From positions 95,236-159,235 of the forward strand of contig JAGQTU010000004.1 of assembly GCA_020438865.1 (NCBI GenBank): a DNA stretch of 64,000 bases, in the 5' to 3' direction. Source of the stretch: Mycobacterium sp. Lineage in GTDB: Bacteria > Actinomycetota > Actinomycetes > Mycobacteriales > Mycobacteriaceae. This document shows positions 30,698 through 56,316 of this stretch, in pieces. The position numbers were made by a program, and so were the translations under genes. Within the stretch, counting starts at the first letter, position 1. Every line of letters starts with the position of its first letter. The notes under the pieces are model-generated. The model was not told the DNA's origin. It did no database searches and was given only the letters and a program-made list of their open reading frames with translations.

Positions 30698-30821
30698 TGT
30701 AGGTTCCGCTTTCCGATGGCGAACCGATACCGCCGTGAGCACAGCCTTCCGTGTTTTTCCGCTCTGCTTGGCGGGGCGGCTTTTCCGGTTTTCGTGGCGA
30801 ATCCGAGAACCGTACGGTTGT
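30698..30821 (+). repeat. Dispersed structured repeat, copy A (right half only)
   Basis: It opens with TGTAGGTTCCGCTTTCCGAT and ends with GAGAACCGTACGGTTGT, the two conserved blocks of the family. The 124-base spacing between the two blocks matches copies B-D. No left arm is recognisable upstream, so this copy is truncated. It is intergenic between a hydrolase gene and mazF. Confidence 0.85.
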
Positions 30822-30953
30822 CTAACTCTGTGGTGAGTCATCCCAGTGGGAAGAGGGTTTGCGAGCTGGCGAGCACCCTTTTCCTCAAGCGCCTTTCGGG
30901 TGCGGAGGTGTTTTGACAGCGATCGTGCTGGATTGGGCCATACGTTTTGCTGT

Positions 30954-31283
30954 TCAGCCGGTCATGCCGAGGTAGACAAGAAGCCCGCGCTCCAGTTGCA
31001 GCATCTCGGTCGTCGATACCTTGCCGATGCGTTGACCCAATTTCGACCTGTGGGCCGTGGTGATCTTGTCGATCATGATGCTGCTCGGGGCAGCTAGTCC
31101 GTTGGTCATATTGGGCTGCAATGGGATTCGCAGTAGTGGGATATCGGCGACCGCAGTGGTCAGCGGGCAGAAAGTTATGGAGTCAGTGGCGTCGAATCGG
31201 TCATCTCGGATGATCAGGACCGGCCTGGGCTTACCCGCGTAACCCTGGCCGGCCGAGGCGGTCCAGAGTTCGCCACGTTTCAC
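30954..31283 (-). CDS. mazF: MazF/PemK-type toxin (endoribonuclease)
   Basis: The 109-residue protein has the MazF fold: MKRGELWTASAGQGYAGKPRPVLII opening, a SITFCPLTTAVADIPLLRIPL strand pair, and SKLGQRIGKVSTTEMLQLE. The conserved Arg and Thr/Ser positions of the active site are visible. Its ATG overlaps the antitoxin stop by 4 bp. It is a sequence-specific mRNA interferase by family. Confidence 0.92.
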   Translation of the reverse strand: MKRGELWTASAGQGYAGKPRPVLIIRDDRFDATDSITFCPLTTAVADIPLLRIPLQPNMTNGLAAPSSIMIDKITTAHRSKLGQRIGKVSTTEMLQLERGLLVYLGMTG

Positions 31284-31507
31284 GAGTTATCGAAGTCTTC
31301 GTCGTTGAATTGAGAAATGGCGTCCACGAAGTCCTGGTCGTCGCCTGCGTTGCGACCAGCAGCGGCCAAAGCCGATTGGCGATGCGCCTCGTCGGCAAAT
31401 TCAGGGGCCCTGGTGTCGGGGACCCAGATTTGGAGGGGGCGCAGTCCCTGCTCGCGTAGTCGAACTCGGTGTTCGGCGACTCGCTTTCCCACGTCACGGT
31501 TGGCCAT
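31280..31507 (-). CDS. mazE: MazE-family antitoxin (DUF3018 type)
   Basis: The protein starting MANRDVGKRVAEHRVRLREQ has the DUF3018 core (RPLQIWVPDTRAPEFADEAHRQ) and an acidic C-terminus (FVDAISQFNDEDF) that should bind MazF. Starts at ATG 31507 or ATG 31516 (MALMANRD) are both possible, and there is no clear Shine-Dalgarno. A perfect palindrome directly precedes the upstream ATG, fitting autorepression. Confidence 0.88.
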   Translation of the reverse strand: MANRDVGKRVAEHRVRLREQGLRPLQIWVPDTRAPEFADEAHRQSALAAAGRNAGDDQDFVDAISQFNDEDFDNS

Positions 31508-31516
31508 GAGCGCCAT

Positions 31517-31528
31517 GTTACATGTAAC
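31517..31528. promoter_or_regulatory. Palindromic operator candidate of mazEF
   Basis: GTTACATGTAAC is a perfect 12-bp palindrome immediately in front of the first possible mazE ATG. Confidence 0.55.
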
Positions 31529-31870
31529 TTGCGCAGGGAGCGTTTCTTGCGCTTTTTTACACCGGAGAGGGCACCCGCAGCCGGCTCGGTTCATCCGCCA
31601 CCCGGGCCGGTGTATTCGACGTTTAGCCGTGCGACCTGCTTGGCATCACGGCCGAGAGGAAGTTCCCGTGGCTACCTCCGACTGGCGCGTGACTCTACGA
31701 TGCGCGTGGGCTCCTGCCGGAATCAAACCGCCGAACGCCTACCACCACCTGCGGCGCATCGAGAAAGCATTCCGGATGTCTTGAACACGGCCTACAGGCC
31801 CGCCCGTTCTGCCAACACAAACGGGAATCGCGATGCCGCGATCGCCGTCCACCCCCACACCGGAAGCCCC

Positions 31871-32135
31871 CGACGCGTCCATTACCGCCTGGTCGCCACG
31901 CTTACCGACGAAACCCGTTACCCAGCAGCCGAACTCGTCGCGTTCTAACACTAGAGATGGGAAATCGAGACCAGTTACCTCGAACTGAAATCACCCATCG
32001 GCGGAGGACGCGTTCTGCGGGAAGCCGTTCCCGCCGGCATCGCTCAAGAGGTCTAAGCCCTGCTGATCACTTGCCATGCCCTGCGCATCGCCATCGCTGA
32101 CACCGCGCTGGCACGCCCCGGAACCAGCCCCGACC
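31871..32135 (+). pseudogene. IS4-family transposase, C-terminal remnant with in-frame stops
   Basis: Reading one frame gives RVHYRLVATLTDETRYPAAE, then after two stops RWEIETSYLELKSPIGGGRV, then ALLITCHALRIAIADTALAR. This is the C-terminal catalytic region of IS4-type DDE transposases (the YxxRWxIExxYxxLK block with the catalytic Glu). In-frame stops are at 31946, 31952 and 32054. The 5' part and the ends of the element are not recognisable. The remnant overlaps the 3' end of the opposite-strand TetR gene. Confidence 0.85.
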
Positions 32136-32803
32136 CTGGCGTTGATAGCGGTCGTAGTCGAAGCGGCGAGCAGCGAATTGGTGACCGGCGCGACGGTCCG
32201 CATGAGGATGTCTGCAACGAGGTCGGGATCGTCCCCGAAGTCTCTTGCGGCCCAACCGGTGAGGGCCGCGTGGAGTGCGCCAGCCGAGAGGTATGCGAGG
32301 TAGTGCGCCTCGAACTCGGTGAGGGGGCGAACGGGCCGGGCGTTGATGAGCCGGGGGATCACCAGTTCGGACACGGCGGCGCGGGCGGGCTCGACGAACA
32401 GGTGGCTGGGGCATCGGGTGGCAAGGGGCTGAAGTGCGGGGAGTCGGCGGGCGAACCCGGCGAAGACGGCCCTGCCGAAGGTGCGCCCGATCGGCAGCTG
32501 GAACGCTTGATGGTCCATCTCGTCGAGTACGTCGCGGAACATCTCCTCGGCGCTTTGCCGGACCACGTCGTCGACGGAGGCGAAGTGGGCGTACATGGTC
32601 TTGCGAGTGACCTTGGCCCGGGACGCCAGTTCCGAGACCGTGATGTCCGGATAGCTCCGGCCTTCCATGAGGAGGGACAGCAATGCCACCCGGATCGAGT
32701 CGCGGGAGCGCTTGACCCGCGGGTCGCGGCACGGCGTGGCAGATGCGTCGTTCGGCACAGAGTCAGCATGCCAAAGCGGGTGCCGGACGGCTTGCGTCAC
32801 CAT
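31991..32803 (-). CDS. TetR-family regulator with an IS-derived C-terminal tail
   Basis: The helix-turn-helix is clear (DITVSELASRAKVTRKTMYAHFAS, about residues 53-76 from the listed start). The ligand domain runs to about TNSLLAASTTTAIN. The last 50 residues (VGAGSGACQRGVSD onward) are antisense to the IS4 remnant, so the natural C-terminus was probably replaced. I chose ATG 32801-32803 because a TATAAC box lies 7 nt upstream. It is divergent from the MpaB-type oxygenase, which it probably controls. Confidence 0.85.
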   Translation of the reverse strand: MVTQAVRHPLWHADSVPNDASATPCRDPRVKRSRDSIRVALLSLLMEGRSYPDITVSELASRAKVTRKTMYAHFASVDDVVRQSAEEMFRDVLDEMDHQAFQLPIGRTFGRAVFAGFARRLPALQPLATRCPSHLFVEPARAAVSELVIPRLINARPVRPLTEFEAHYLAYLSAGALHAALTGWAARDFGDDPDLVADILMRTVAPVTNSLLAASTTTAINARVGAGSGACQRGVSDGDAQGMASDQQGLDLLSDAGGNGFPQNASSADG

Positions 32804-32810
32804 TGGGACT

Positions 32811-32816
32811 GTTATA
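32811..32816 (-). promoter_or_regulatory. Probable -10 box (TATAAC) of the TetR gene
   Basis: TATAAC on the minus strand, 7 nt, then ATG 32801-32803. Confidence 0.4.
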
Positions 32817-32850
32817 CAAATGGATATTATCTTTGCCGGGAGGTTGCCCG

Positions 32851-34275
32851 ATGCAAACCACACCTTTGAGGGCCGCACACGAGAATCTGTTCTGCCGAGA
32901 ACCGAGTGACCCCTATCGTCTGCCGCCGAAAGCCCGCCGGATCTACAACTCGGAGTTCGAGCACTATCGGGCGTTCATCTTCGACGGGGTGCTGCCGCCG
33001 CAGCTGCTCGACGATCGCTATGCGTCCCAGGTCGAGTCGCCCGGCCCCGGCTCTCTCGAGCTGCGGTACGGGGATCAGATGTGGGAAGGCGACCAGCTGG
33101 CCGACGCCGTGGTCGACATGTTCTTCCGGGAAGGGGTCGGGGCGTCGCGAAAGATGCTCGTCACGGCCCTCGATCAGGGCATCGAGTCGGTGGACTCCCC
33201 GCCCCCGGAGCTCGTGCGCCTGTTCGAGCAACTCGACCGCATCCCGGACTGGATCGACGAAGACACCATCGGGGCGGGTAATACCGTCGCACTGCGCGGT
33301 GGACTGTTCTCCCATATCCTATTTTTCCTGATAGACCTCATTCTCACCCACTACACGGGGATGGCGCGGCCGCTGGCCGCGACAGGCAAGATCAACGCCG
33401 ACTACCGACTGATCGAGACCGCGACGTTCTTCGCCGAGGTGAACCAACCGGGAAGCATGATGCGTCACTCCGAGGGCTTTAAGCGCGCGGTGCTGGTTCG
33501 GGTGATGCATGCGCTCGTCCGCCGCCGCCTCACCGATCCCGATCATCCCGCATTCGCGGACTACGACGTGGCGGGGATGTGCATCAGCAACCATGACATG
33601 GGCGGGATGTGCTGGGCCTACTCCCTGCAGATCGCCCTGGCGTTCCGCCGGTTCGGCGGCGAGTTCTCCGACGAGGACATGTCGGGATTGCACCGGTACT
33701 GGTGCTACATCTGCTACGTCATGGGAGTAAACGAGGCGACTATCCCCAAGTCATTCGAGGAAAACGCCCTGTTCATGAACTACCACTGGGCCTCGGCCGA
33801 GGCCCCGCCACCGGGCACCCAGGCGCTGCGCGATCAAATGCTCGAACAGTTCTCCGTGGCCGGTCGGCAGTCACGGAGGCTGAGCCTCGCCGGCAGATAC
33901 GTTCTCGCCCCGATGTTCCGGCGCATGTTCGGCGATGCCGCCTGCGACAGTCTGAGGATTCCCGACTCAAGACTCAAGCACGTGATTCAGCCCGTGCTGT
34001 TCGTGGTGGTGCGCGGCCACTTCGCCGCGCAACGTGCGATATTCCACCTCCGGCCCGCAAAACGGTTGGCCGACAATTTCTTCGAGCATTACGACCGAAA
34101 GAACGTGAGGCGGCTGGCGCGTGTACACGAGGCCATCGCGGGGATCGAACGGCGACGGGCCCTCGGCACCTACAGCCACCACGACGGCGCAGACGGCCAG
34201 GGCCGGGACTCCGACCTGCAAAGCGGACTCGCGCTGATCTACGCCGCCGCCGTAAACGGCGACGTCCCCGGTTAG
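32851..34275 (+). CDS. Oxygenase MpaB-family protein (DUF2236, Lcp-related)
   Basis: The 474-residue protein matches the haem-binding DUF2236 family that includes latex-clearing protein Lcp and the MpaB oxygenases. The conserved stretch ATFFAEVNQPGSMMRHSEGF and HALVRRRL, and later CISNHDMGGMCWAYSLQI, lie in the all-helical core. Lcp-like members cleave carbon-carbon double bonds. The natural substrate here is unknown. ATG 32851 has GGGAGG 7 nt upstream. It is divergent from a TetR gene 47 bp away, a typical regulator-target pair. Confidence 0.85.
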   Translation: MQTTPLRAAHENLFCREPSDPYRLPPKARRIYNSEFEHYRAFIFDGVLPPQLLDDRYASQVESPGPGSLELRYGDQMWEGDQLADAVVDMFFREGVGASRKMLVTALDQGIESVDSPPPELVRLFEQLDRIPDWIDEDTIGAGNTVALRGGLFSHILFFLIDLILTHYTGMARPLAATGKINADYRLIETATFFAEVNQPGSMMRHSEGFKRAVLVRVMHALVRRRLTDPDHPAFADYDVAGMCISNHDMGGMCWAYSLQIALAFRRFGGEFSDEDMSGLHRYWCYICYVMGVNEATIPKSFEENALFMNYHWASAEAPPPGTQALRDQMLEQFSVAGRQSRRLSLAGRYVLAPMFRRMFGDAACDSLRIPDSRLKHVIQPVLFVVVRGHFAAQRAIFHLRPAKRLADNFFEHYDRKNVRRLARVHEAIAGIERRRALGTYSHHDGADGQGRDSDLQSGLALIYAAAVNGDVPG

Positions 34276-34358
34276 CCGCAATACCGCGCAGTTGAGCGCG
34301 GAGCGTGGTTGGGCCTTGATCCCATGTGGTGGACAAGGGATTTGTGGTTAGGCGGCTA

Positions 34359-34599
34359 ACAACCTTCCGGCAAAATTGCCATTGCTTTGCCACCGAAAGC
34401 GGAATTTCACCATCGGAAAGCGGAACCTACAGTCGTCGTCGTCCAAGTCGTCGTCGCAAGTGCGCTAGTAGTAGTTGTAGGTTCCGCTTCTCGATGGCAA
34501 ATGCGCTAATCCTTGAGCAGCACGTTGACGACTTTTCCGGCCACGGTAGCGAGAGGGTTTTTCCGCTTTTCGTGGCGAATCCGGGAACCGTACGGTTGT
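34359..34599 (+). repeat. Dispersed structured repeat, copy B (full length)
   Basis: The 241-bp element runs from ACAACCTTCCGG to TACGGTTGT. The inner hairpin arms are 34411-34431 and 34476-34496 (19 of 21 pair), enclosing a 44-nt loop made of GTC and GTA trinucleotides. The outer arms GCCACCGAAAGCGGAA and TTCCGCTTTTCGTGGC pair imperfectly. It lies between the MpaB gene and mntA. Confidence 0.85.
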
Positions 34600-35015: not shown

Positions 35016-35491
35016 GCAGATCGGCACGAGACCGGCTGACTGACATTCAGACAGCGATCGCCAAGGTCTATGCCTATCGGTCATCCCTGAGAGGCGAGCA
35101 TTCCGACATGGCGATCTCAGCGATCCGCCGCGAAATAGGGATAATCGGCGAAGCGGTTAACGCGCTACCTGAGGGTGTAACTGGCCAGCGGCCCGAGATC
35201 GCCTGGCGGCAGATCGGCGCCATGCGCAATTTCCTGACCCACGAATACTTCAACATCGACGCAGCCGTCGTGGAAGACGTTATCGCCAATGATCTCGACC
35301 CCTTGAACGCTGCAGTGAAAGCCCTGCTCGATAAAGCCAAAGAAGCGTGCTGCCCAGAGCGGAAGTGCTTGGCCAAGCGCGTTATCGGCTCTTCTGAGCA
35401 GGCTGTGCCCCTCCCTATCAGAGTTGCTGTCCAACAACGGCTTACACCTTCAAATAGCAAGGCGTCTCGACAGCAGCAGCAGCTGTTCTAG
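35012..35491 (+). CDS. hepT: HepT-type HEPN RNase toxin, with long C-terminal extension
   Basis: The HEPN motif R-x4-H-x-Y is present as RNFLTHEYF (Arg72, His77, Tyr79), which carries both the RNase residues and the tyrosine that MntA modifies. The HEPN helical bundle ends near residue 110. A tail of about 50 residues with three cysteines (EACCPERKCL) and a QQQQ end is extra to the usual HepT of 110-140 residues. GTG start overlaps the mntA stop. Confidence 0.9.
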   Translation: MSRSARDRLTDIQTAIAKVYAYRSSLRGEHSDMAISAIRREIGIIGEAVNALPEGVTGQRPEIAWRQIGAMRNFLTHEYFNIDAAVVEDVIANDLDPLNAAVKALLDKAKEACCPERKCLAKRVIGSSEQAVPLPIRVAVQQRLTPSNSKASRQQQQLF

Positions 35492-35911
35492 CACGCAACT
35501 CGACGCGTGCCGCGGCTTGTCCAACAGCCAAGTCCGCTTTGTCAATCGTCGTTGCATCTAGACACTCACGGAGGGCTTCATTTCCTACAACAGCCCCACG
35601 ACCAAGCCAACTCGGCTGGTGCAGAGCAGCCGCGTCAGATGGTGAGGTAGCCGAGGCGTTCTGCCGCGGTGTCGATTCGGATGGTGAGGCCCGGGTGGGC
35701 CAGCGGTAGGGAGAGGACGGGACGGCGCGGCATCGCGGTGCTAGGGCAGGTCCGGGTTAGCGAGCGCTACTCGATTGAGGTCAGGAGTCCGCACCGCCCT
35801 CGCCGCTGTTCAGAGGCGACGGAAGCATTGCGTCGGCATTCCGCAGAAAGTCCGGGTCGGTGACCCTTGTTTGGCAATACGCTGAAGCCCCCTTGAGAAA
35901 GCGGTTGGTGC
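35492..35911. other. 420-base intergenic stretch, possible gene debris
   Basis: No gene with a ribosome binding site or domain is seen. On the minus strand (about 35638-35739) a 33-residue frame ending GLTIRIDTAAERLGYLTI could be the tail of a lost gene, but it matches nothing I can name. Confidence 0.45.
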
Positions 35912-37528
35912 ATGACGACTGTTCGCGACGCGATCCTGGACTTGTGCCGCACCCACGGCTTGACGACCTGGTTCGGCAATCCCGGATCCTCGGAACTGTC
36001 TCTGCTGCAGGACTTCCCGGCCGATTTCCGCTACCTGCTGGGTCTGCAGGAGATGATTCCGGTCGGGATGGCCGACGCCTACGCGCAGGTGACGGGCCGA
36101 CCGGCGCTGGTGAACCTGCACACCGCCCCGGGCATGGGAAACGCCCAGGGCCAGTTGTACAACGCCTACGTCAACAAAACCCCGTTGATCGTGACCGCCG
36201 GCAATCAGCGCCGATTCATGCAGAACCAGTACTGCCTGCTGACCAACATCGAAGCCACCACGGTGCCGAAACCCTTCGTGAAATGGGCCGCTGAACCGAC
36301 GATCGCCACCGAAGCGCCGGCGGTGCTGGCACATGCCATCCATCTGGCCACCACGCCGCCGATGGGACCGGTGTTCGTGTCCTTGCCGATGGATGATCTG
36401 CCGGTCGAGTTGACCGACGCGCAGGCCTCCGACGTCGCCGTCGTGGCCATCCGGACGGTGACTCGCGCATACGGTTTCCCACCGGAGCTGGCTCAACAAA
36501 TCTGCCAGCGGATCCAGTCGGCGGCATCCCCCGTCCTCGTCGTCGGGGGCGACGTGGAACGCTATGACGCCTGGGACGGCGTGATCACCCTCGCCGAACG
36601 CAACCAGCTGCCGGTCTGGACCGCGCCGTTGACCGGCTGGAGCGGATTCCCCGAGAACCATCCGCTCTACCAGGGGATGTTGCCACCCGGGGCCGGCTGG
36701 ATTTCCCAGATACTCAAGGGCCACGACCTGGTCGTGGTGATCGGAGCGCCGGTATTCCGCTACTACCCGATGATTCCGGGCCCCTACCTGCCCGAGGGGG
36801 CATCGCTGGTCCACATCACCAACGACCCCGACGAAGCCGCCCGGGCACCCGTGGGCGACGCCATCGTCGCCGACCTGGCCAGCGCCGCACGAGCGCTGGC
36901 CGACGCGTCCACCCCGACTCAGCGACCGGCCCCGGCACCCCGTCCCCAAGCCCAGGCGGTCCAACCCGCTTCCACACCCCTCGCGCCGGCGAACCTCTGG
37001 AGCGCGGTCGCCAAGGCCGCCCCGCCCGATACCTTGTGGGTCAGCGAAGCCGGCAGCAACGAGACCACGATCGTCGACTGTATCCGGCCCGGTCAACGGC
37101 TGTCACACCTGTCGGCCGCCGGAGGCGGTCTGGGCTACGGGTTGCCCGCCGCGGTCGGGGCGCAACTTGCCGCACCGGACCGACCCGTCGTCGCGCTCAT
37201 GGGTGACGGGTCGATGCACTACGCCATCACCGCCCTGTGGACCGCTGCCAGATATCAGATCCCGATCACGGTGGTCGTCGCCTCGAACACCGAATACGGC
37301 GTGCTCAAGGAGTTCGGGTTCATCGAGCAGACCCCCGGGGTTCCCGGCCTCGACCTGCCCGGGCTCGACGTCGTGGCCACCGCCGCCAGCTACGGCGTCG
37401 ACGCCCACGACGCGCACAGTGCCGATGAGGTGACCGAACTCGTTCGAGCCGGTATCGCCGATCGCCAACGGCCCACCCTGATCAATTGCGCGACTGAAAC
37501 AGTCGAAGCGATGGTGAAGCACTCCTAA
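35912..37528 (+). CDS. Benzoylformate-decarboxylase-like TPP enzyme
   Basis: The 538-residue protein follows P. putida benzoylformate decarboxylase (MdlC) almost segment by segment. Ser26 is in FGNPGSSELS, the TPP-activating Glu47 in GLQEMIPVG, His70 in VNLHTAPGMGN, and the TPP motif is LMGDGSMHYAITALWTAARY. The second catalytic histidine (His281 in the VFRYH segment of MdlC) is Tyr285 here (VFRYYPMIPG), so activity or specificity probably differs. No mandelate-pathway genes are adjacent. The annotation as benzoylformate decarboxylase should be taken as family level. Confidence 0.82.
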   Translation: MTTVRDAILDLCRTHGLTTWFGNPGSSELSLLQDFPADFRYLLGLQEMIPVGMADAYAQVTGRPALVNLHTAPGMGNAQGQLYNAYVNKTPLIVTAGNQRRFMQNQYCLLTNIEATTVPKPFVKWAAEPTIATEAPAVLAHAIHLATTPPMGPVFVSLPMDDLPVELTDAQASDVAVVAIRTVTRAYGFPPELAQQICQRIQSAASPVLVVGGDVERYDAWDGVITLAERNQLPVWTAPLTGWSGFPENHPLYQGMLPPGAGWISQILKGHDLVVVIGAPVFRYYPMIPGPYLPEGASLVHITNDPDEAARAPVGDAIVADLASAARALADASTPTQRPAPAPRPQAQAVQPASTPLAPANLWSAVAKAAPPDTLWVSEAGSNETTIVDCIRPGQRLSHLSAAGGGLGYGLPAAVGAQLAAPDRPVVALMGDGSMHYAITALWTAARYQIPITVVVASNTEYGVLKEFGFIEQTPGVPGLDLPGLDVVATAASYGVDAHDAHSADEVTELVRAGIADRQRPTLINCATETVEAMVKHS

Positions 37529-41073: not shown

Positions 41074-41110
41074 TCACCAGCACGGTCCGGCTCGGCTACA
41101 TGAACTTCGC
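41074..41110. repeat. 37-bp direct repeat, right copy
   Basis: One mismatch to 38896-38932. It ends exactly where repeat copy C begins. Confidence 0.9.
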
Positions 41111-45784: not shown

Positions 45785-45818
45785 CGGAAGCGCTGCGTCG
45801 GCACGGCACGATGAAGGC

Positions 45819-46565: not shown

Positions 46566-47722
46566 CCGCGCCCGCACCGTCTACCGGGTTCGGGATGCGC
46601 CGGCGGCTGTTGCTCGCCCAGACTCTGGTGCTGCTGGCCGGCGGGGTGACCACCTGGGTGGTGGCCTCGCTGGTCGGTCCGCCGCTTTTCCGCGAGCATC
46701 TGCACCTGGCCGGGGTGGCCCACGACTCCAACGAGCAGTTCCACGCCGAGCAGGCCTATCAGCATGCGACTGCGCTGTCGATCGCGGTCGCGATCACGGT
46801 GGCCGCGTCGACCGCGTTCGTGGTGACCGCCTACCTGAGCCGGCGCCTGCAGCGTTCCATCGCCGAGGTCTCCGCGGCGGCCTCCGCGGTGGCCGAGGGC
46901 CGCTACGACATCCGGGTGGCTCCACCGAGACTCGGGGAGGAGTTCGACGAGCTGGCGGTGGCGTTCAACCGGATGGCGCAGCGCCTGCAGTCGGTGGAGT
47001 CCACCCGCCGCCAGCTCTTCGGTGACCTCGCCCACGAGATCCGCACCCCGGTGTCGGTCCTGGAGGCCTACCTCGAAGCCGTCGAGGACGGCGTGAAAAC
47101 CCTTGACCCGCCAACCATTGCGATGCTGCGCGAGCAGACCGGTCGGCTGGTGAGGTTCTCCAACGACGCTGCCGCGCTGGCCCAGGCCGAAGACGCCCAC
47201 GCCGCGATCACCCCGCAGTGGGTGGACGTCGATGAGCTCGTTGGCGCGGTGAAAGCGGTTGCCGCCGAACGGTACGCCGTCAAGGGGGTGACCCTGACCA
47301 CTCGGACGAATGGTGGGCGTTTGTGGGCCGATCGGCAACGGCTGATGCAGGTGCTGGGCAACCTGCTCGATAACGCGCTGCGCCACACCCGGTGCGGTGG
47401 GCATGTCAGCCTGACGGCCAGCCGCGCCGGCACCGAGGTGGTGTTCACCGTCGCCGACGACGGCGAAGGGATCGCCCCCGAGCACCTGCCGCACCTCTTC
47501 GAGCGGTTCTACCGCGCCGACTACGCCCGCGACCGTGGACGCGGCGGCTCCGGGATCGGGCTGGCCATCGTCAAAGCCCTGACCGAGGCCCACGGCGGCC
47601 ACGTCAGTGTGACCAGCCGCGGGCCCGGGCACGGCACCACCTTCACCGCAACGGTGCCGGCGTCCGCGACGTCGGCGCCACGGGGTGAGGGTCAGCCCGC
47701 GGGTGTGCCGACCAGTTCGTAA
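46562..47722 (+). CDS. Sensor histidine kinase (copper island)
   Basis: Two TM segments (about residues 17-38 and 72-92) flank a short external loop of about 33 residues containing three to four His (FREHLHLAGVAHDSNEQFHAEQAYQHAT). These could sense metal. HAMP, DHp (phospho-His158 in GDLAHEIRTP) and HATPase (NLLDNALRHT, DDGEGIAPEH, GGSGIGLAIV) follow. Its 3' end overlaps the opposite-strand CopZ-like gene by 31 bp. Confidence 0.93.
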   Translation: MTAPAPSTGFGMRRRLLLAQTLVLLAGGVTTWVVASLVGPPLFREHLHLAGVAHDSNEQFHAEQAYQHATALSIAVAITVAASTAFVVTAYLSRRLQRSIAEVSAAASAVAEGRYDIRVAPPRLGEEFDELAVAFNRMAQRLQSVESTRRQLFGDLAHEIRTPVSVLEAYLEAVEDGVKTLDPPTIAMLREQTGRLVRFSNDAAALAQAEDAHAAITPQWVDVDELVGAVKAVAAERYAVKGVTLTTRTNGGRLWADRQRLMQVLGNLLDNALRHTRCGGHVSLTASRAGTEVVFTVADDGEGIAPEHLPHLFERFYRADYARDRGRGGSGIGLAIVKALTEAHGGHVSVTSRGPGHGTTFTATVPASATSAPRGEGQPAGVPTSS

Positions 47723-47922
47723 CCGGCACGCGTGATCGCATCGCGCACCGCCCCGGCCTCCAAGGCGGCTGAGCTGGTGACGGTCACGGTCGAATCACCT
47801 TGCGGGACAAGATCGACGGCGACGTCGGTGACGGTGCCCAGCGTTTGAAGCTCGCTGGTCACCGCCCCGACGCAATGCCCGCACGTCATGCCCCGGACCC
47901 GGTAGGTCTGTGTCTGGGACAC
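47692..47922 (-). CDS. HMA-domain copper chaperone (CopZ-like)
   Basis: The 76-residue protein has the heavy-metal-associated fold with an intact GMTCGHCVGAV motif (CxxC) that binds Cu(I) and passes it to the ATPase. GTG start with GAGGAG upstream. It starts 11 bp after the DUF305 gene stop, so the two form an operon controlled from the DUF305 promoter. Confidence 0.92.
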   Translation of the reverse strand: MSQTQTYRVRGMTCGHCVGAVTSELQTLGTVTDVAVDLVPQGDSTVTVTSSAALEAGAVRDAITRAGYELVGTPAG

Positions 47923-47933
47923 GGGTTCTCCTC

Positions 47934-48707
47934 CTACAGCGAACTCAGGATCTGGTTCATGGTGTCGATCTCCTTCTGCTGGCTCTCCAGGATCGACTTC
48001 GCGAGCGCGATAGCGTCGGTGGACTGACCGTTCTTGATCTCGTCCTGCGCCATGGTGAGCGCACCCTGGTGGTGCTTGATCATGCCGGTCAGGTAGAGCT
48101 TGGCGGCCTGGGCGCCGTTGGCGTTCTTCAACGCGTCCATGTCAGCCTGCGACATCATGCCGTCCATACCGGACATGTCCATGCCGCCGTGATCCATGCC
48201 GGGCATCATCGAACCGCTCGGCATCATCGAGCCGCTGGGCATCATGCTGGTGGTGGTCGGTGTGCCGGAGTCCTGCATGCCGCCGTGGTCCATCCCGGGC
48301 ATTCCGCTCATGCCGCCGTGGTCCATACCGGGCATCCCGCTCATGCTCGGCATTCCACTCATGCCGCCCATGCCCCACTGGCTGATCCAGCCCTGCATCG
48401 TCGCGATCTCCGGGCCCTGGGCGGCCTTGATCTGCTTGGCCAGGTCCACTACGCGCGGGTCGATGCCCTGTTTGGCCAGGATGATGTCGCTCATCTCAAT
48501 GGCCTGCTGGTGATGCGGAATCATCATCTGCGCGAAGTGCATATCGGCCATGTTGTGCGCGGCGGCCGGCGCAGCCGAGGAGGTCTGGGTCGTCGACGGC
48601 GCCGCCGAGGACGTGGCTTCCTTGGTCGCGGTGTTGCTACACGCCCCGAGGGCGGCCACCGTGGCCAGCGCAGCCATACCGGTCACCACAGTCCTTGTCT
48701 TCTTCAC
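47934..48707 (-). CDS. DUF305 lipoprotein with internal Met/His-rich insertion
   Basis: Signal with lipobox (LGAC) and two DUF305-type ferritin-like halves (DMHFAQMMIPHHQQAIEMSD and KLYLTGMIKHHQGALTMAQDE). Between them lies a Met/Gly/His-rich stretch with repeated MPGMDHGGM units. DUF305 proteins are found in copper-resistance clusters and may bind copper through the HH pairs and Met. GTG starts at 48710 and 48707 are both possible, with GAAAGG upstream. A box lies 79 bp before the start. Confidence 0.9.
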   Translation of the reverse strand: MKKTRTVVTGMAALATVAALGACSNTATKEATSSAAPSTTQTSSAAPAAAHNMADMHFAQMMIPHHQQAIEMSDIILAKQGIDPRVVDLAKQIKAAQGPEIATMQGWISQWGMGGMSGMPSMSGMPGMDHGGMSGMPGMDHGGMQDSGTPTTTSMMPSGSMMPSGSMMPGMDHGGMDMSGMDGMMSQADMDALKNANGAQAAKLYLTGMIKHHQGALTMAQDEIKNGQSTDAIALAKSILESQQKEIDTMNQILSSL

Positions 48708-48785
48708 CACATACCTTTCGTTGTCGTCACGTTCGTTCGGCTTCCAGCCTTCCGCGCGTTGATAGGGGTGTCCTAGCCGTTCTGT

Positions 48786-48803
48786 GAAGATTCGATAAAG
48801 AAC
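48786..48803 (+). promoter_or_regulatory. Copper-island box 3 (GAAGATT N4 AAAGAAC)
   Basis: Between the divergent DUF305 and DUF302 genes, 79 bp before DUF305. Confidence 0.7.
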
Positions 48804-48888
48804 AGCCTGCGGTCGCACCACCCGGTGGATGGGCGTGCCAAATTCGGTGAAGAGGAACCCGTGACGGGCCGCATGAGGGGGAAACACC

Positions 48889-49296
48889 ATGAGCATTGCC
48901 ATCTCGACTGCCCTGCAGTCCTCGTTCGCCGACGCGGTGACCCGCACCCGTGAGGCACTCGCCGGCCAGGGTTTCGGCGTCCTCACCGAGATCGACATGA
49001 AAGCCACCCTGAAGGCCAAGCTGGACCAGGACATGGAGAACTACCTGATCCTGGGCGCCTGCAACCCGCCACTGGCCCACCGGGCGGTGGACATCGACCG
49101 CCAGATCGGGCTGCTGCTGCCGTGCAACGTCGTGGTGCGCACCGACCCTGACGATGACACCCGGGTGCTGGTGGAAGCGATGAATCCCCAACTGCTGGTT
49201 CAGGTCACCGGCGACCCAGCCTTGCAGGAGGTCGCCGACGAGGTCACCGCCAAGCTGCGCGCGGCGATTCAAGCGTTGGGTCCGACCTCGGAGTAG
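48889..49296 (+). CDS. DUF302-family protein
   Basis: The 135-residue soluble protein matches DUF302 (FADAVTRTREALAGQGFGVLTEIDMKATLKAK, then LGACNPPLAHRAVD and LLLPCNVVV). Two conserved Cys are present. Family members occur near copper and redox genes, but the activity is not defined. GAGGGGGAAACACC precedes the ATG. It is divergent from DUF305, with box 3 between. Confidence 0.9.
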   Translation: MSIAISTALQSSFADAVTRTREALAGQGFGVLTEIDMKATLKAKLDQDMENYLILGACNPPLAHRAVDIDRQIGLLLPCNVVVRTDPDDDTRVLVEAMNPQLLVQVTGDPALQEVADEVTAKLRAAIQALGPTSE

Positions 49297-49309
49297 ACGC
49301 GCCGGGCTG

Positions 49310-51688
49310 TCACACCGCGGTGGCTGCGGGCTGCTGGGCGCTTGAGGCGCTCGGCGCTGGGGGTGCCGGCAGTTTCAGGCGCTTGAGCATCAGGGCATTG
49401 ACGGCGACGATAAAACTGGAGCCCGACATCGACATGGCGGCGATCTCCGGGCGGAGCACAAACCCGAACACCGGTTTGAGCACCCCGGCCGCGATGGGTA
49501 GGGCGATCACGTTGTAACCCACGGCCCACCAGAGGTTCTGGCGCATCTTGCGCAGGGTTCCTCTGCCGATGCGCAGGGCGATTGGTACGTCGAGGGGATC
49601 TGAGCGCATCAGGACCAGGTCTGCGGTTTCGATCGCGACGTCGGTGCCCGCCCCGATCGCGACCCCGAGATCGGCCTGGGCCAGAGCGGGGGCGTCGTTG
49701 ACGCCGTCGCCGACCATGGCGGCTTTTCGGCCCTGGTTCTGCAGGTCGGCGATCTTGGCGGCTTTGTCTCCGGGCAGCACCTCGGCGATGACGGTGTCGA
49801 TGCCGAGTTGGTCGGCGATACGGGTGGCGGTGGCCTGGTTGTCGCCACTGAGCATGACCACCTTCACCCCGAGGTCGTGCAGCTCCCGCACGGCGTCAGC
49901 GGACGTCTCCCGCGCGGCGTCAGCCAGGGCGACCACCCCGACCCCGCGCCCGTCGACGGAGATCAGCACCGCGGTGCGCCCGCTGGCGGCGAGCTCATCG
50001 CGGCGGCTCATCAACGCCGTCGGGAAGTCCACCGCTTCCTCGACCATGAGTTTGCGGTTGCCCACAGCGACCCGCCGGCCGGCGACCGTCGCGGTGGCGC
50101 CGTGGCCGGGCACGTTGCGGAAATCCGTCAATGTGGCTGCTGCGGCGCCCTTTTCGGTGGCGAAGCGCACGATCGCCGCCGCCAAGGGGTGCTCGGACTC
50201 CTTCTCCACTGCGGCGACCAGAGCCAGCAGTTCTTGCTCGCCGATCCCCTCGGCGACGAAATCGGTGACTTCCGGCTCGCCTTTGGTGAGTGTGCCGGTC
50301 TTGTCCATCACCACGGTGTCGATCCGGGCCGATGTCTCCAGGGCCGTGGCGTTTTTGAACAACACGCCCCGTTGGGCGCCCAGGCCGGTACCCACCATGA
50401 TGGCCGTCGGGGTGGCCAGACCCAGGGCGTCGGGGCAGGTGATGACGACCACCGTGATCGCGAAGAGCAGCGCGGCCTGTACTCCGGCCCCGACGGCCCA
50501 CCAGACCAGGAAGGTGACGGTCCCGCCGACCAGCGCGACCAGGACGAGCCAGAAGGCCGCGCGGTCGGCCAGCCGCTGCCCGGGCGCCTTGGAGTTCTGA
50601 GCCTGCTGCACCATCGCCACGATCTGGGCCAGTGCGGTGTCGGAACCGACTTTGGTCGCCCGGACCCGCAAGGTGCCGGTGGTGTTGATCGAGGCGCCGA
50701 TGACGCTGTCACCCTGCGCTTTAGACACCGGCAGGCTTTCACCGGTGACCATCGACTCGTCGACCTCCGAGGCGCCCTCCTCGACCGTGCCGTCGACGGG
50801 AATCTTGGCCCCGGGACGGATCAACAACAGGTCCCCGACCACGACCTCCGCAGTGGGCACTTCCACCGGTTCACCATCACGGACGACCACCGCCATCGGC
50901 GGCGCGAGCTCGAGCAGGGTACGAATGGCTTCGTTGGCCCCGCCCCGGGCGCGCATCTCGAACCAATGTCCAAGCAGCACAAAGGTTGTCAGCATCGCGG
51001 CGGCCTCGTAGAACACCTCGCCGCCGCCGGTCAGGGTCACCCCGACGCTGTAGAGCCAGCCCGTGCCGACGGCGACGGCGACCAGGACCATCATGTCCAA
51101 AGTCCGGGCCCGCAGGGCCCGCCAGGCGCCGTCGAAGAAGATCCACGCCGAGTAGAACACGACCGGCAGGCTCAGCAGGAAGGTGAAGACGTCGTCACGC
51201 ATGCCGAACGGCGCCGGCACCATGAATCCGAACATGTGCCGCCCCATCGGGGAGAACAACATGATCGGGATCGACAGCACCAAGGCCACCAGGAACCGGT
51301 TGCGCATGTCGCGCACCATCGCGTCCATCGACATACCTGCGTGGCCGCCGTGTCCCATCATCTCGTGCGGCGACGGGCCCGCCTGGGGAGCGTGATGGCC
51401 GTGGTGGACATGGCCGGCCTCGCCGGTGTCGGCCGTCGGTTCGGCCATCGGATCGCAGACGTGGTGGGGAACTGAGCGGCCGGCGCAGTGGAATCCGCAG
51501 TCGCGCACCCAGTCCGCAAGTTCACCCACGGAGGTCGTGGCCGGGTCGTAGGTCACCGTCGCGGTCTGGTTGACCGCGTTGGCCTGCACCGCGCTGACAC
51601 CCGGCCGGCGCAGCAGCGCCGACTCGATCACCGCGGTCGAGGTCGCCCAGTGCAAGCCGCCGACGTCGAGGACAGTGCTTTCAGGCAT
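49310..51688 (-). CDS. Copper P1B-type ATPase with CPD metal-site motif
   Basis: The 792-residue pump has the P-type ATPase core: TGES (315-318), DKTGT phosphorylation site (Asp462), [10 protein letters not shown] and eight TM segments. The N-terminus has a degenerate HMA domain lacking CxxC ([12 protein letters not shown]) followed by a His/Met-rich stretch ([20 protein letters not shown]). The TM metal-site motif is CPD (Cys418-Pro-Asp420) rather than CPC or CPH. It should export copper, but specificity is uncertain. GGAGAA precedes the ATG and box 4 lies 73 bp upstream. Confidence 0.9.
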
Positions 51689-51760
51689 GGGTTCTCCGTC
51701 CGCGTGATCTGCTGGCTACCAGGCTTCCCCGTGAGCACAGGGTTCTTGTGCGGGTTCGAC

Positions 51761-51778
51761 AAAGATTCAATGAAGATT
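51761..51778 (+). promoter_or_regulatory. Copper-island box 4 (AAAGATT N4 GAAGATT)
   Basis: Upstream of the ATPase gene (73 bp) and of the L,D-transpeptidase gene. The second heptamer is the most complete match. Confidence 0.75.
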
Positions 51779-51823
51779 GCCGGTTCAGGCCGGACGCGAA
51801 CCGACCGAGAGTGGCTCGGTGAT

Positions 51824-51829
51824 TAGGTT
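51824..51829 (+). promoter_or_regulatory. Probable -10 box (TAGGTT) of the L,D-transpeptidase gene
   Basis: TAGGTT, 7 nt, then ATG 51837. Box 4 lies about 46 bp upstream, where a regulator could contact polymerase. Confidence 0.5.
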
Positions 51830-51836
51830 GGGCATC

Positions 51837-53216
51837 ATGCGCGCCCTTCTCCAGATGTCCGGCACGCGGCTCGGATCCAGGACGCTGCAGAGGAACACTC
51901 TGCTTGCGGTTCATCTGGTCGTCCTGCTCGTCGTGGCGGTCGCCATGCCGGGGGTGTTTCGCTGCCCGACACCGCTGTGTGGGCACGACGGCGACTCGGC
52001 GCACGGTTCGTCACCTGCGACGGTATCGGCACCGGCTCCGGTCCAGCTGTCCATGCAGCCCGGACCCAACGCGAACAACGTCGACCCGCTCGCCCCCGTC
52101 ACCGTCACCGCGGCCGCCGGCAGCCTGCTGAACGTGGAGATGGTCAACGAGACCGGCAAGGCCGTCGAGGGCGTGATGACCCCGGACAACACGGTGTCGA
52201 AACCCACCGTGCCGCTGGGCTACGGCCGCAGCTACACCGTGACCGCAACCGGCCGCGGCGCCGACGACGTCACCCGCGCCCTAGTGTCGACGTTCACCAC
52301 CCTGGTCCCCGGCAACCAGACCGCGGTGAGACTGACCACCACCGGCAACCACGACCTCGTCGACGGCGGCACTTACGGAATCGGGACCGTCGTGGTCGCC
52401 CGCTTCGATGAGCCCGTCCCTGACCGCGCCGCCGCCCAGCGCGCCCTGCGCGTAACCACCAACCCGCCCGTCGACGGTGCGTGGACCTGGGTCGACGACG
52501 CGACCGCGCACTGGCGGCCCCAGCACTACTACGCCCCCGGCACCACCGTGAACGTCGCGGCCAACATCTACGGCGTCCCCCTCGGACAGGGCCTGTACGG
52601 GCAAGCCGACGCGAGCGTGAGCTTCCGCATCGGCGACGCCCACGTCTCGATCGCCAACGACCTCACCAAACAGGTCAGCGTGTTCAGCAACGGCCAACTG
52701 GTGCGCACCATGCCGACGTCGATGGGGATGGGCGGCAGCGAAACCATCGGCGGGCGCACCATCAGCTTCTGGACCCAACCCGGGATCTACACCGTGATGG
52801 ACAAGGCGAACCCCGTCGTCATGGACTCCTCGACCTACGGCCTGCCCATCAACTCCCGGCTGGGCTACAAGCAAACCATCAACTGGGCCACCCGCATCAG
52901 CACCGACGGCATCTACCTGCACGCCCTGGAAGACACCGTGTGGGCCCAGGGCAACACCAACGTCTCCCACGGCTGTCTGAACCTCAGCGCCGAGAACGCC
53001 GAGTGGTTCTACAACTTCTCCCAGCCCGGAGACATCGTCGAAGTCCGCGACACCGGCGGAGCCCCGCTGCAACAGTGGCAAAACGGCGACTGGAGCGTCC
53101 CATGGGCGGAGTGGCTGGCCGGCAGTGCCACCCATGAACCGCCGCCACCCACCGTCCCCGATGCCCCGGCCGACACACTGGAGAAACAGGGAGCCGATGG
53201 TCAACCCCCACGCTGA
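51837..53216 (+). CDS. L,D-transpeptidase (Ig-like domains plus YkuD)
   Basis: The 459-residue protein has an N-terminal membrane anchor (residues 21-40), two mycobacterial-type Ig-like domains, and a YkuD catalytic domain with His362 and the signature SHGCLN (His378, Cys380). It makes 3->3 crosslinks in peptidoglycan. In this context it may strengthen the wall under copper stress. It overlaps the next gene by 20 bp. An ATG 7 nt from a TAGGTT box sets the start. Confidence 0.93.
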   Translation: MRALLQMSGTRLGSRTLQRNTLLAVHLVVLLVVAVAMPGVFRCPTPLCGHDGDSAHGSSPATVSAPAPVQLSMQPGPNANNVDPLAPVTVTAAAGSLLNVEMVNETGKAVEGVMTPDNTVSKPTVPLGYGRSYTVTATGRGADDVTRALVSTFTTLVPGNQTAVRLTTTGNHDLVDGGTYGIGTVVVARFDEPVPDRAAAQRALRVTTNPPVDGAWTWVDDATAHWRPQHYYAPGTTVNVAANIYGVPLGQGLYGQADASVSFRIGDAHVSIANDLTKQVSVFSNGQLVRTMPTSMGMGGSETIGGRTISFWTQPGIYTVMDKANPVVMDSSTYGLPINSRLGYKQTINWATRISTDGIYLHALEDTVWAQGNTNVSHGCLNLSAENAEWFYNFSQPGDIVEVRDTGGAPLQQWQNGDWSVPWAEWLAGSATHEPPPPTVPDAPADTLEKQGADGQPPR

Positions 53217-53655
53217 TCGCGGCAACCGCGGCCCGCTGTTGTGGATCGCCGCCCCGGTCGTCGCCGGCGCCGCCATTGTCGCCGTCGCCGTCGCCACCGG
53301 CGCACTGCAGCTGGGAAGGTCTGCGGACTCCGCACCATCGACCGAGCAGGTCGCGCAACAACGCTGCCCAGCCGAGGTGATGAAACGGCTGGTCGCCCCT
53401 GACAAGGCCACCCTCTCCGATGTCCGTACCGAGCCCAGCACCCTCGACACCGAGGGCCGGGACTTCTCCTCCCTGACAGCCAGCGAAGCACTCAAGGGTG
53501 TCGACACCTCGCGTATCACGGTGCTCAACGTCTCCGGGGTGGCCAACGCGCCCAGCGAGATCGGCACCACGATCCAAGACCACTTCGACTGTCGCGCCTA
53601 CTTCGTCGACGGCGCGCTCGCCCACACTCTGGTGGTCTTCGACCACGGCCACTGA
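53197..53655 (+). CDS. Membrane-anchored hypothetical protein
   Basis: The 152-residue product has an N-terminal TM segment (LLWIAAPVVAGAAIVAVAVA) and an extracytoplasmic domain with two Cys (QQRCPAEV, FDCRAYF) that could pair. ATG 53197 has GGGAGCC upstream. It overlaps the L,D-transpeptidase gene by 20 bp, so they are probably co-expressed. Function unknown. Confidence 0.75.
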   Translation: MVNPHADRGNRGPLLWIAAPVVAGAAIVAVAVATGALQLGRSADSAPSTEQVAQQRCPAEVMKRLVAPDKATLSDVRTEPSTLDTEGRDFSSLTASEALKGVDTSRITVLNVSGVANAPSEIGTTIQDHFDCRAYFVDGALAHTLVVFDHGH

Positions 53656-53756
53656 AAGTCCGGTTCAGCGAGGCCGAAATGCCGTGAGGGTCAGCACGGG
53701 TAGCGTGGAATCCACGTCAGGACGCGGTGCGTCCTTCGTCGACCAGGGGGGCCACG

Positions 53757-54848
53757 ATGGCGACAGCAGCAGTCCGGGCGATCACCGCCATCACCCTTGT
53801 TGCAACAGCCCTGACGGGATGTTCGAGCAAGCCCCAGGCATCCCCACCCCGGTCGGGGTCGGTCTGGGTCGCCGATGAGGGCCACGACAGCGTGTCGGTC
53901 ATCGACGCCGCCACCAACACGGTGACCATGACCCTCACCGGAATCAAAGGGCCACACAACATCCAAGTCGGCCGTGACAACTCGGTGGTATATGCGGTCA
54001 GCAGCGCCGGCGTCGTCGTCGCCATCGACCCCGCCACCTACCAGGTGACCGCCACAGCGCCCACCGGACCCCATCCCGCCCATGTCATCGAAGCCCCCAA
54101 CGGCAAGGTCTACGTGACCAATTCGGGGGACGGCACGGTGTCGGTCTACAAGGCCCCGGGACTGAGCCCCGCCGGTCGGATCACCCTCGATGGCATGCCC
54201 CATGGGCTGCGGGCTGCCGCCGGTGGCTCGGTCATCGTGGTCGCCAACACCATGGACGGTGCGGTCGATCTGATCGACCCGGCCACCGACAAGTACGTGG
54301 GGGCGGTGCCGGTCGGTGCGAGTCCCGCTCAGGTCGCGGTCAGCGGCGATGGCAAGTACGCCTACACCGGGATCACCGAGCCGCCCAGTGTCGTGAAAGT
54401 CGATCTCGCACAACGCAAAGTGGTCGGCAGCGTCGCCGTTCCCACTGCGCCGGTCCAGCTCTATCTCACCCCCGACGAGAACGAGGTCGTCTCCGCCGAC
54501 CAAGGCACCAAGGACGCCCCGGGACACACGCTGTCGGTCATCGACACCAAGGCCGTGACGGCCCGCAGCACGGTCACCACCGGTGCCGGGCCGCACGGCG
54601 TGGTCATCGACGACTCCGGCACATGGGCGTGGGTGACCAACAGCTTCGACAACACCGTCACCGCTGTCGATCTCTCGTCGTCGACGGCGATGCCCCCGAT
54701 TCCCGTCGGCACCGAGCCCAGCGGCATCAGCTACTCGTCACGACCGCCCGCCACCGCCCCGGCCAGCAGCACCACCCTCGACATCCCCAGCCCGTCTACC
54801 TTGCCGCCGGGTGAATCCCAGTCCGATCCGCACAGCGGACACCACTAG
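53757..54848 (+). CDS. YVTN-family beta-propeller lipoprotein
   Basis: The signal has a lipobox (LVATALTGC). The mature part carries about seven YVTN-type blades (SVWVADEGHDSVSVIDAATN, GKVYVTNSGDGTVSVYKAPG, TWAWVTNSFDNTVTAVDLSS) and a Ser/Pro/His-rich tail ending SGHH. GGGGGGCCACG precedes the ATG. It is similar in design to the propeller lipoprotein at 41.4 kb, and the two bracket the copper island. Confidence 0.88.
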   Translation: MATAAVRAITAITLVATALTGCSSKPQASPPRSGSVWVADEGHDSVSVIDAATNTVTMTLTGIKGPHNIQVGRDNSVVYAVSSAGVVVAIDPATYQVTATAPTGPHPAHVIEAPNGKVYVTNSGDGTVSVYKAPGLSPAGRITLDGMPHGLRAAAGGSVIVVANTMDGAVDLIDPATDKYVGAVPVGASPAQVAVSGDGKYAYTGITEPPSVVKVDLAQRKVVGSVAVPTAPVQLYLTPDENEVVSADQGTKDAPGHTLSVIDTKAVTARSTVTTGAGPHGVVIDDSGTWAWVTNSFDNTVTAVDLSSSTAMPPIPVGTEPSGISYSSRPPATAPASSTTLDIPSPSTLPPGESQSDPHSGHH

Positions 54849-54861
54849 GCCCGTCGGGCGC

Positions 54862-55854
54862 TCAATCGTCGTGGTGGTGCTGGTGACCGTCGGCGTCACC
54901 ATCACCCTCTGCCTCCACCGCCGACGAAGAAGACTGCGCCGGAGCCGGTTTCGCAGCGGGCACCGCCGCGGGGGGCGCGGGGGCCTCCGGCGCTGGCTGG
55001 GTCACTCCACCGGCAGCCGGCACGCCGGGCTCCCCATGATGGTCGCCGTCGACCTCAAGGGACATGTCGGTCACCGGCAGCTCCTCCTCCGGCACCCCCG
55101 TGCCTGCAGGGGGCGCCAGGGGGACCGACGGATGGTGATCGCCGTCCATGTGCCCGTCTGCATCCATGTGAGCGTCGCCGTCCATGTGCGCGCCATCCAT
55201 GTGGCCCTCCATGTGGGCATCACCGTCCATGTGCGCGCCATCCATGTGGCCCTCCATGTGGGCATCACCGTCCATGTGCGCCTCGTGATGGGATTGATGG
55301 CCCTCCTGCGCCTCGGCAGCTGCCCCATGGTGATGGTGATGGTGGCCCTGCAAGCTGGCCGCCAGACCCAACGTGACCGCCCCGGCCACGATCGTGTTGG
55401 CCCCCATGAGCACCATCGCCCGCCCAAACCCGGAAACCTCTTCAGCCTGATGCATTCGCGACCACGCCCACCCGGCGCCCATGACGACATAAAGCTGAAG
55501 CAGCAGAACACAAATCCCGGCTGCCCCCACCGGTTCAGGCTGTCCTGCCGACGGCCCGACCGGCGGCCCACTGATACAGGACATCACCCACAATCCGGCC
55601 GCGCCCACATTCGCCGCAATTCCGGCGGATAGCACCCAGGCGTTCTGCCGCGACCACGCCACCAACCCCCACACCAGCTGAAAACTGGCCAGGACTGCGA
55701 AAAACACGCCCGACGGCAACCAATCCCGCCAATGCATCGGCGTGACCGCGAAGTGAATCACGGCTGCGCCCATCGACGCCACCGCCGCACAGCGAGCGGC
55801 CAGCCGAACGTCGGACTTCGTCAATTTCCTCGTGGCCACGGCAATGACGGTCAC
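54862..55854 (-). CDS. Membrane protein with His/Met/Asp-rich repeat tail (metal binding)
   Basis: The 330-residue protein has four TM segments in its first 170 residues. A hexahistidine run (QGHHHHHHG) and a repeated HMDGDAHMEGHMDGA unit follow, then a Pro/Ala-rich region and a final HQHHHDD. The many His, Met and Asp side chains should bind copper, zinc or nickel. GTG start. Tandem 45-bp units encode the repeat, so copy number may vary between strains. Confidence 0.8.
   Translation of the reverse strand: MTVIAVATRKLTKSDVRLAARCAAVASMGAAVIHFAVTPMHWRDWLPSGVFFAVLASFQLVWGLVAWSRQNAWVLSAGIAANVGAAGLWVMSCISGPPVGPSAGQPEPVGAAGICVLLLQLYVVMGAGWAWSRMHQAEEVSGFGRAMVLMGANTIVAGAVTLGLAASLQGHHHHHHGAAAEAQEGHQSHHEAHMDGDAHMEGHMDGAHMDGDAHMEGHMDGAHMDGDAHMDADGHMDGDHHPSVPLAPPAGTGVPEEELPVTDMSLEVDGDHHGEPGVPAAGGVTQPAPEAPAPPAAVPAAKPAPAQSSSSAVEAEGDGDADGHQHHHDD
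55178..55282. repeat. Tandem 45-bp coding repeat (two perfect copies plus partial)
   Basis: Units 55178-55222 and 55223-55267 are identical, and 55268-55282 starts a third copy. They encode the His/Met/Asp unit of the membrane protein. Confidence 0.92.
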
Positions 55855-56114
55855 ACAAAGGGTGAATCAGCACGAGCAGCAACGGATAACAGTCGCGTCC
55901 CAGATCCGCAACGCACAAATCAGGACTTAGCAGTCTGTCGTCACGACAATAGATCGCCGCTTCTAGCTGCAGTGACGCAGTGGTCTCCGGCAGATGGGGC
56001 CAGTATTCGTGATGATTAGTGCCGACATCGCTTGCTCCGCGCGATGAACGAGGCACCGCATCATGAGCGTCCCACCGGGAAGGCTCTGCGGTCAACAGTT
56101 AGGTAGCCGTCCTA

Positions 56115-56316
56115 ACAACTTTCCGGCAAAATTGCCAATCTACTGCCATCAAAAGCGGAATTTGGCCATCGAAAAGCGGAACCTACAGCACCTGTAGGTT
56201 CCGCTTTTCGGTGGCGAAGGCGCCACTTACTGAGCTGCGCGTTGGCGGCTTTTCCGCCGAAGATGGCGAGACAGTTTTTCCGCTTTTCGCGGCGAATCCT
56301 AGAACCGTACGGTTGT
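56115..56316 (+). repeat. Dispersed structured repeat, copy D (full length)
   Basis: The element runs from ACAACTTTCCGGC to TACGGTTGT. The inner hairpin has 22-nt arms (56167-56188 and 56192-56213, one mismatch) and a 3-nt loop. The outer arms GCCATCAAAAGCGGAA and TTCCGCTTTTCGCGGC pair with two mismatches. It lies downstream of uppP and upstream of the His-rich gene, intergenic. The 260 bases between the His-rich gene start and this repeat hold no gene. Confidence 0.88.

Follow-up and report, generated by a model that had tools for sequence, protein, structure and literature searches.

Intergenic repeats of a mycobacterial genome are probably the abutting ends of Tn7-like transposons arranged head to tail

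We analysed four related intergenic repeats, copies A to D, in a 64,000-nucleotide stretch of a Mycobacterium sp. genome (GenBank assembly GCA_020438865.1, contig JAGQTU010000004.1, positions 95,236 to 159,235 of the forward strand), hereafter the window. With a probability of about 0.93, these repeats are the juxtaposed ends of Tn7-like transposons standing in a head-to-tail array. The mobile units are the 3.7–15 kb blocks between the repeats, and each repeat brings the short end of one element against the long end of its neighbour. Along the window the order is long end A, short end B and long end B, short end C and long end C, short end D and long end D, followed by the contig end. The window holds three head-to-tail elements of 3.7, ~6.7 and 15.0 kb (X1, X2 and X3) and the start of a fourth (X4), with copies B, C and D as the junctions between neighbouring elements and copy A as a lone long end. 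The sequence-only reading, made before this analysis, did not recognise the family and would have been refuted by copies that are parts of a known kind of element; this is the outcome here, as there are further copies and they are ends of Tn7-like transposons.

The four copies were found at the coordinates given in that reading, and their blocks recurred well beyond chance when compared with shuffles of the window. The block TGTAGGTTCCGCTT had six exact matches, four on the forward and two on the reverse strand, while shuffles allowing up to two mismatches gave a mean of 0.17 and 0/100 reached six. The block TTCCGCTTTTCGNGGCGAATCC gave four matches against 0 expected and, as had been noted, was less conserved in copy A, by one mismatch. 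The block GAACCGTACGGTTGT was found four times on the forward strand (with one mismatch in copy C) and four more times on the reverse strand because it is nearly palindromic; the shuffles had a mean of 1.39 and none reached eight. The distance from the first block to the end, described as about 124 bp, was 124 bp in all four copies.

Each repeat was resolved into one or two parts. The short part has ~77 bp and ends in ...GGAACCTACA; the long part has 124 bp, starts with TGTAGGTTCC... and ends in GGTTGT. Copy A is the long part alone (124 bp), copies B and D contain both parts, separated by spacers of 44 bp and 5 bp, respectively, and copy C contains both parts, the short one without its last ~15 bp. 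The true termini lie in the middle of each repeat, and the repeat unit as first drawn is inside out. The sequences ACAAC and GGTTGT, taken at first for terminal inverted repeats, are indeed conserved in copies B and D, but mark the inner edge of the two parts and not the terminus of a mobile unit.

Alignments of 26 long ends and 17 short ends showed a motif of ~20 bp, in the window of the form TTCCGCTTTTCG.TGGCGRA, which is repeated in inverted orientation in both ends, the long end having three copies set apart from one another and the short end two or three copies packed together. The two nested inverted pairs described earlier are present, and they arise because this same site is repeated in inverted orientation. 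In Tn7 itself the ends are asymmetric and carry several TnsB sites, the termini begin with 5'-TGT, insertion yields a 5-bp duplication, and the tnsA-side end faces the attachment gene. The asymmetric ends found here, with their repeated putative transposase sites and TGT...ACA termini, appear to be of this Tn7-like kind. The motif varies among elements, with TTCTCA, TTCCAC, TTGCAA and TTGCCA types. Judged by eye, it is the same at both ends of the element G149 383351–381781, of both elements of G163 and of the element of G288, and agreement between the two ends is poor in G200 and G295.

The genome that contains the window (G000; 4.96 Mb in 366 contigs) also carries single halves of the repeat on contigs other than that of the window (C313). 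C347 has a short end; C302 begins with a long end and also has a short end, at C302:79967–80042. Inward from the short end on C347 lie homologues of TnsA, TnsB, TnsC/TniB and TniQ, and outward the stop codon of dnaB is located 12 nt past the short-end terminus. The TnsA-like endonuclease matched TnsA_like_Actin NF033179 above its cut-off (E 1.1e-65) and had no Pfam match; the TnsB-like DDE transposase (702 amino acids, L060:6930–9038) matched Mu-transpos_C (1.1e-6) and TnsAB/TnsB chains of the PDB (3e-18 to 4e-9). The adjoining AAA+ ATPase of the TnsC/TniB kind (L060:5821–6933) matched PF05621 (1.5e-9) and the TnsC of Vibrio (3.6e-6), and the TniQ of 796 amino acids (L060:3427–5817) matched PF06527 (E 8e-21). 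The element at dnaB on C347 is thus predicted to carry the gene set of a Tn7-like transposon, the functions of these homologues being putative. Searches of the whole genome for TnsB gave C347, two pieces on C339 and a weak match on C154; TnsA and TniQ were each found on C347 and C339. TniQ was detected at seven places over G000, G208 and G181, none of them on C313, and TnsA, TnsB and TniQ were not found on C313 in the searches of this genome.

Several other features of these contigs were observed. A second TniQ gene (L060:40–1782) is truncated where the contig begins, and it is separated from the first TniQ gene by an insertion of the IS256 type (Transposase_mut; L060:2123–3454). The DnaB at L060:9947–12574 has 875 amino acids against 435 positions in the TIGR00665 model, suggesting an intein. 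The short end on C302 (L059:9968–10043) is 10 nt past the stop codon of a gene that by eye is transglycosylase/DUF4226-like, which suggests another attachment site; a partial short end is located ~1 kb away.

The position behind dnaB was then compared among genomes. Seventy dnaB loci (a set of 30 and a further 40) out of 193 matching genomes were read, together with L120 of G208; two had no tail and L120 was omitted, giving 67 distinct tails from 68 genomes. These genomes were the ones ranking highest by DnaB similarity to G000 and are not a random sample. A TGT-type end was present on 39 of the 67 distinct tails, and 34 of these 39 ends lie 7–14 nt past the dnaB stop codon. Tn7-like transposons characteristically insert at a set distance behind a conserved gene, and the ends show this for dnaB. 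The 39 ends comprise 23 of the class TGT[AC]GG, eight TGTGGC and eight TGTCGAGAT; the latter two classes are TGT-type by sequence and are candidate members of the Tn7-like group. The search expression TGT[AC]GG... is loose, occurring 21 times on the two strands of the window, or in ~0.6% of 36-nt single-strand stretches. An element of Nocardia (L187) starts 3 nt past dnaB. A different end, TGTCGAGATGCA or TGTCGAGATCCA, occupies much the same position in eight dnaB tails (L196, L198, L201, L204, L206, L207, L218 and L227), so that further mobile families may share the site.

Copy D was detected by Blast in at least 32 of 297 genomes of the genus, and the long-end sequence model in at least 84 of 297, with two and 12 candidates scored per genome, respectively, and the own genome included in both counts; no match to copy D was obtained in plasmid and phage collections at E 1e-5. 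In G208 (contig C31) an array begins behind dnaB with a 20.2-kb element (89650–109882) containing TnsA, TnsB and two TniQ genes, followed by a homologue of X3 (109888–124841), by 124847–134509 and by further ends up to 196562, all in a single orientation. Window positions 41144–56319 align with G208 124869–109756 at 96.75% identity (15,198 aligned positions). This similarity breaks off at the ends as mapped (41144–56319 as against 41175–56316). Positions 3496–17086 of C347 align with G208 96085–82473 at 84% identity, spanning the tns genes and dnaB. In G181 the cargo of X2 is split across two adjoining elements in swapped order, indicating that cargo has been shuffled, and one junction of G181 combines the left flank of copy C with the right flank of copy B. 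A second TnsA gene was also observed in the G208 array (G208:C31:160862–161473), adjoining a short end whose motif is of a different type (GTGAGAACCTACA), so that this array may contain two elements with tns genes that are not of one type.

The spacers at 26 junctions measured 5 bp in 11 cases, 8 bp in five, 4 bp in four, 7 bp in two, and 6, 12, 17 and 44 bp in one each. Among 16 elements with both ends mapped (matches below 17 bits were excluded, and the short terminus of X2 was extrapolated), two were flanked by an exact 5-bp match, compared with a background of 7/836 pairs of long and short ends from different tiles. These two are a 1,571-bp element of G149 (GCTGC) and a 6,200-bp element of G288 (AGTCG), and both matches sit at TGTAGG/CCTACA. 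No tns gene was found in either unit; the longest listed inner open reading frame of the G149 unit (305 amino acids) was unscanned, and four of the five predicted open reading frames of the G288 element were scanned, giving one Pfam match, to an ApeA-like HEPN protein. Movement in trans is best supported by these two elements. Further coincidences, two in number and both picked post hoc, are GTGTG outside long end C as well as outside the own-genome short end at dnaB, and GGTCG outside both G208 160576 and G208 89650.

Based on these observations, we propose that an element has a 77-bp short end, lying on the side of tnsA, and a 124-bp long end, with the termini 5'-TGTAGG...CCTACA-3', that a TnsA/TnsB transposase would recognize the repeated sites, and that TnsC together with a selector of the TniQ/TnsD type would choose the target, insertion giving a 5-bp duplication. 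The selector would place the short end ~12 nt past the dnaB stop codon; later insertions between dnaB and an earlier element would then yield a growing stack, and recombination between like ends would shuffle the cargo. The elements of the window would need a helper acting in trans, such as the element of C347, in order to move, and the window array may itself be the one at dnaB.

Several points weigh against this reading. The contig of the window is not joined to C347, on which X4, to judge from synteny with G208, probably continues with the tns genes beside dnaB; the part of X4 beyond window position 56319 has no match to the G208 element at dnaB. The roles of the proteins are predicted from their sequences, and TnsC is known from the C347 locus, the genome-wide searches having covered TnsA, TnsB and TniQ. 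No dnaB tail was found within the stretch covered at 21 of 25 TnsB loci of other genomes, several of these stretches being short on that side, so that dnaB appears to be one target among others. Fourteen of the 16 mapped elements lack an exact 5-bp match (for X2, with its terminus lost, the test is unfair), which implies that most boundaries have recombined or decayed, or that simple stacking is not how the arrays grew. In addition, triplet-rich flanks raise the background of 5-bp matches, and the positive case GCTGC is such a flank.

These unmatched elements also bear on the strongest alternative, which is compatible with Tn7-like ends but has the arrays arise mainly by homologous recombination or duplication. 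The 14 elements without matching flanks agree with it, as does the X2 cargo, which G181 has in swapped order on two elements, whereas 5-bp spacers of many sequences and neighbours of different motif types fit independent insertions, and two elements keep what appear to be exact duplications; we consider this origin possible but unlikely. It is much less probable that the repeats are integron-like or other recombinase cassette sites whose cargo moves as circles. Such sites could explain the four repeats in the same orientation with cargo between them, as well as the G181 junction of C and B flanks, but TnsA/B/C/TniQ genes adjoin an end, the spacers vary in sequence with a mode of 5 bp, homologous recombination between ends can account for the shuffling, and no integrase was seen among the few genes scanned, with no search aimed at integrases.

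Less credible still is the view that the 124–240 bp repeat is a small non-autonomous element resembling a miniature inverted-repeat transposable element, bounded by ACAAC and GGTTGT. The sequence-only reading had suggested a non-autonomous mobile element, and in this it was right that the DNA is mobile, with TnsA, TnsB and TniQ not found on C313, but the repeat itself is not the element. The conservation of ACAAC...GGTTGT in copies B and D and the dispersal of the copies fit a small element, but this reading is largely refuted by halves that occur singly (A as a long end, and the short ends found at dnaB and on C302), by shared blocks between genomes that correspond to the interval between repeats, and by the location of both exact 5-bp flanking matches at TGTAGG/CCTACA. 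A structured RNA, which had also been suggested, deserves equally little credence, as does a paired-strand element maintained because it folds into a double hairpin: the nested inverted repeats fit such a structure and the terminal arms of copy D do pair at 16/16 positions, but the arms belong to different elements, pairing reaches at least 14/16 in just 11 of 26 junctions and at most 11/16 in five, single halves cannot form a double hairpin, and no Rfam family matched the window at its gathering score.

The features of the Tn7-like array in the window are all on the forward strand. Long end A (30698–30821, 124 bp) has no short end ahead of it, and its outer flank holds AGCAGCAGCAGC. It opens X1 (30698–34431, 3,734 bp, mapped ends), the cargo of which includes a MazF/PemK-type toxin, a MazE-like antitoxin and an MpaB/Lcp-type oxygenase (Pfam), and by eye a TetR-like regulator. 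X1 closes with short end B (34356–34431, terminus CCTACA at 34431), and a 44-bp spacer rich in GTC and TAG triplets (34432–34475) separates it from long end B (34476–34599). X2 (34476–~41173, ~6.7 kb, short terminus extrapolated) carries a HepT-like RNase, a thiamine pyrophosphate (TPP) enzyme, an amidohydrolase and an enzyme of the choloylglycine hydrolase family (Pfam), with a probable nucleotidyltransferase partner of the HepT-like RNase recognized by eye. Short end C (41110–41171) corresponds to model positions 2–62 of 77, its last ~15 bp being gone, and is followed by long end C (41175–41298; outer 5 bp GTGTG). X3 (41175–56187, 15,013 bp, mapped ends) includes a multicopper oxidase and a metal P-type ATPase (Pfam) and ends in short end D (56112–56187); the 5-bp spacer GCACC (56188–56192) leads to long end D (56193–56316) and X4, which runs from 56193 to the end of the window and of the contig at 64000. 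PADLOC found nothing among six cargo proteins. A search for remnant ends in 35301–36000, 56317–64000 and 27001–30697 gave a single weak long-end match at ~29412 (9.2 bits); this match, at 29412–29460, is possibly a decayed end upstream of copy A.

Tn7 of Escherichia coli is described as inserting behind glmS via TnsD (PMC2918618). The elements studied here resemble it in their TnsA, TnsB, TnsC and TniQ-family genes and in having their target immediately behind the 3' end of a conserved gene, but differ in that this gene is dnaB, in the sequences of ends and sites, and in the many tandem elements without detected tns genes. In the account of Benler et al. (2021, PMC8649781), which maps boundaries from arrays of TnsB sites, clade 2 Tn7-like transposons are mostly of Actinobacteria and none is experimentally characterized; host group and TnsB-based core genes agree, making the present elements candidate members. 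The words 'mycobacter' and 'non-autonomous' are absent from the main text of that paper. Tn7706 of Rhodococcus erythropolis, a 19.4-kb multicopy element with tnsA, tnsB, tniQ and tniB that in other strains is reported from linear plasmids only (PMC12915292), has, by its description, the same kinds of tns/tni genes in an actinobacterium, and 'dnaB' does not appear in the text of that report. The main text of a survey of Tn7 target selectors (PMC10293859) lacks 'actinobacteri', 'actinomycet' and 'mycobacter'. Neither a dnaB attachment site nor mycobacterial Tn7-like arrays were found in literature titles and abstract openings, with subscription papers mostly outside this scope. The elements thus belong to an established kind, the actinobacterial Tn7-like transposons; the dnaB target and the array were not found in print.

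Triplet tracts were observed beside several long ends. Among 55 distinct long ends, a short end was recognized by the search expression in 26 and not in 29, of which 28 were used (one is flankless); perfect period-3 runs of at least 10 nt lay within the outer 30 nt in six of these 28, compared with 3/868 control windows from the same flanks. The solitary state of the 28 is approximate, as the short end of some (L003 and L026, for example) is damaged and not missing, and their lineages are not independent. Among dnaB tails without a recognized end, such runs were present in two of 28 distinct tails (L205 and L230). Trinucleotide tracts outside long ends or in spacers were seen at window positions 30668–30697 and 34432–34475, in L044, L035/L047 and L055, and also in L029/L058, L006, L015, L123 and L139. 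These tracts may reflect either a preference of the transposon for such sequences or scars of earlier events. We tentatively suggest, as a possibility that is more doubtful than not, that the site behind dnaB is a genus-wide mycobacterial cargo platform, where several Tn7-like families use one attachment site and non-autonomous cargo blocks are carried in trans into mixed stacks, and that the tracts are scars of its reuse. If so, an XYZXY duplication rejoined after excision over a 2-bp microhomology would become XYZXYZXY, and the tracts, those beside outer long ends as well as those of some dnaB tails that lack an end, would be a record of the number of times that the site had served.

For the actinobacterial group of Tn7-like transposons, experimentally uncharacterized according to Benler et al., the present analysis maps the ends and supplies a target site as well as the architecture of the arrays. 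Relatives of the window elements often lie directly behind the essential dnaB gene in mycobacteria, which explains islands of cargo beside an essential replication gene, including copper-type genes, toxin–antitoxin pairs and, in a relative, an ApeA-like HEPN protein, and the ends provide a simple sequence handle for finding such islands.

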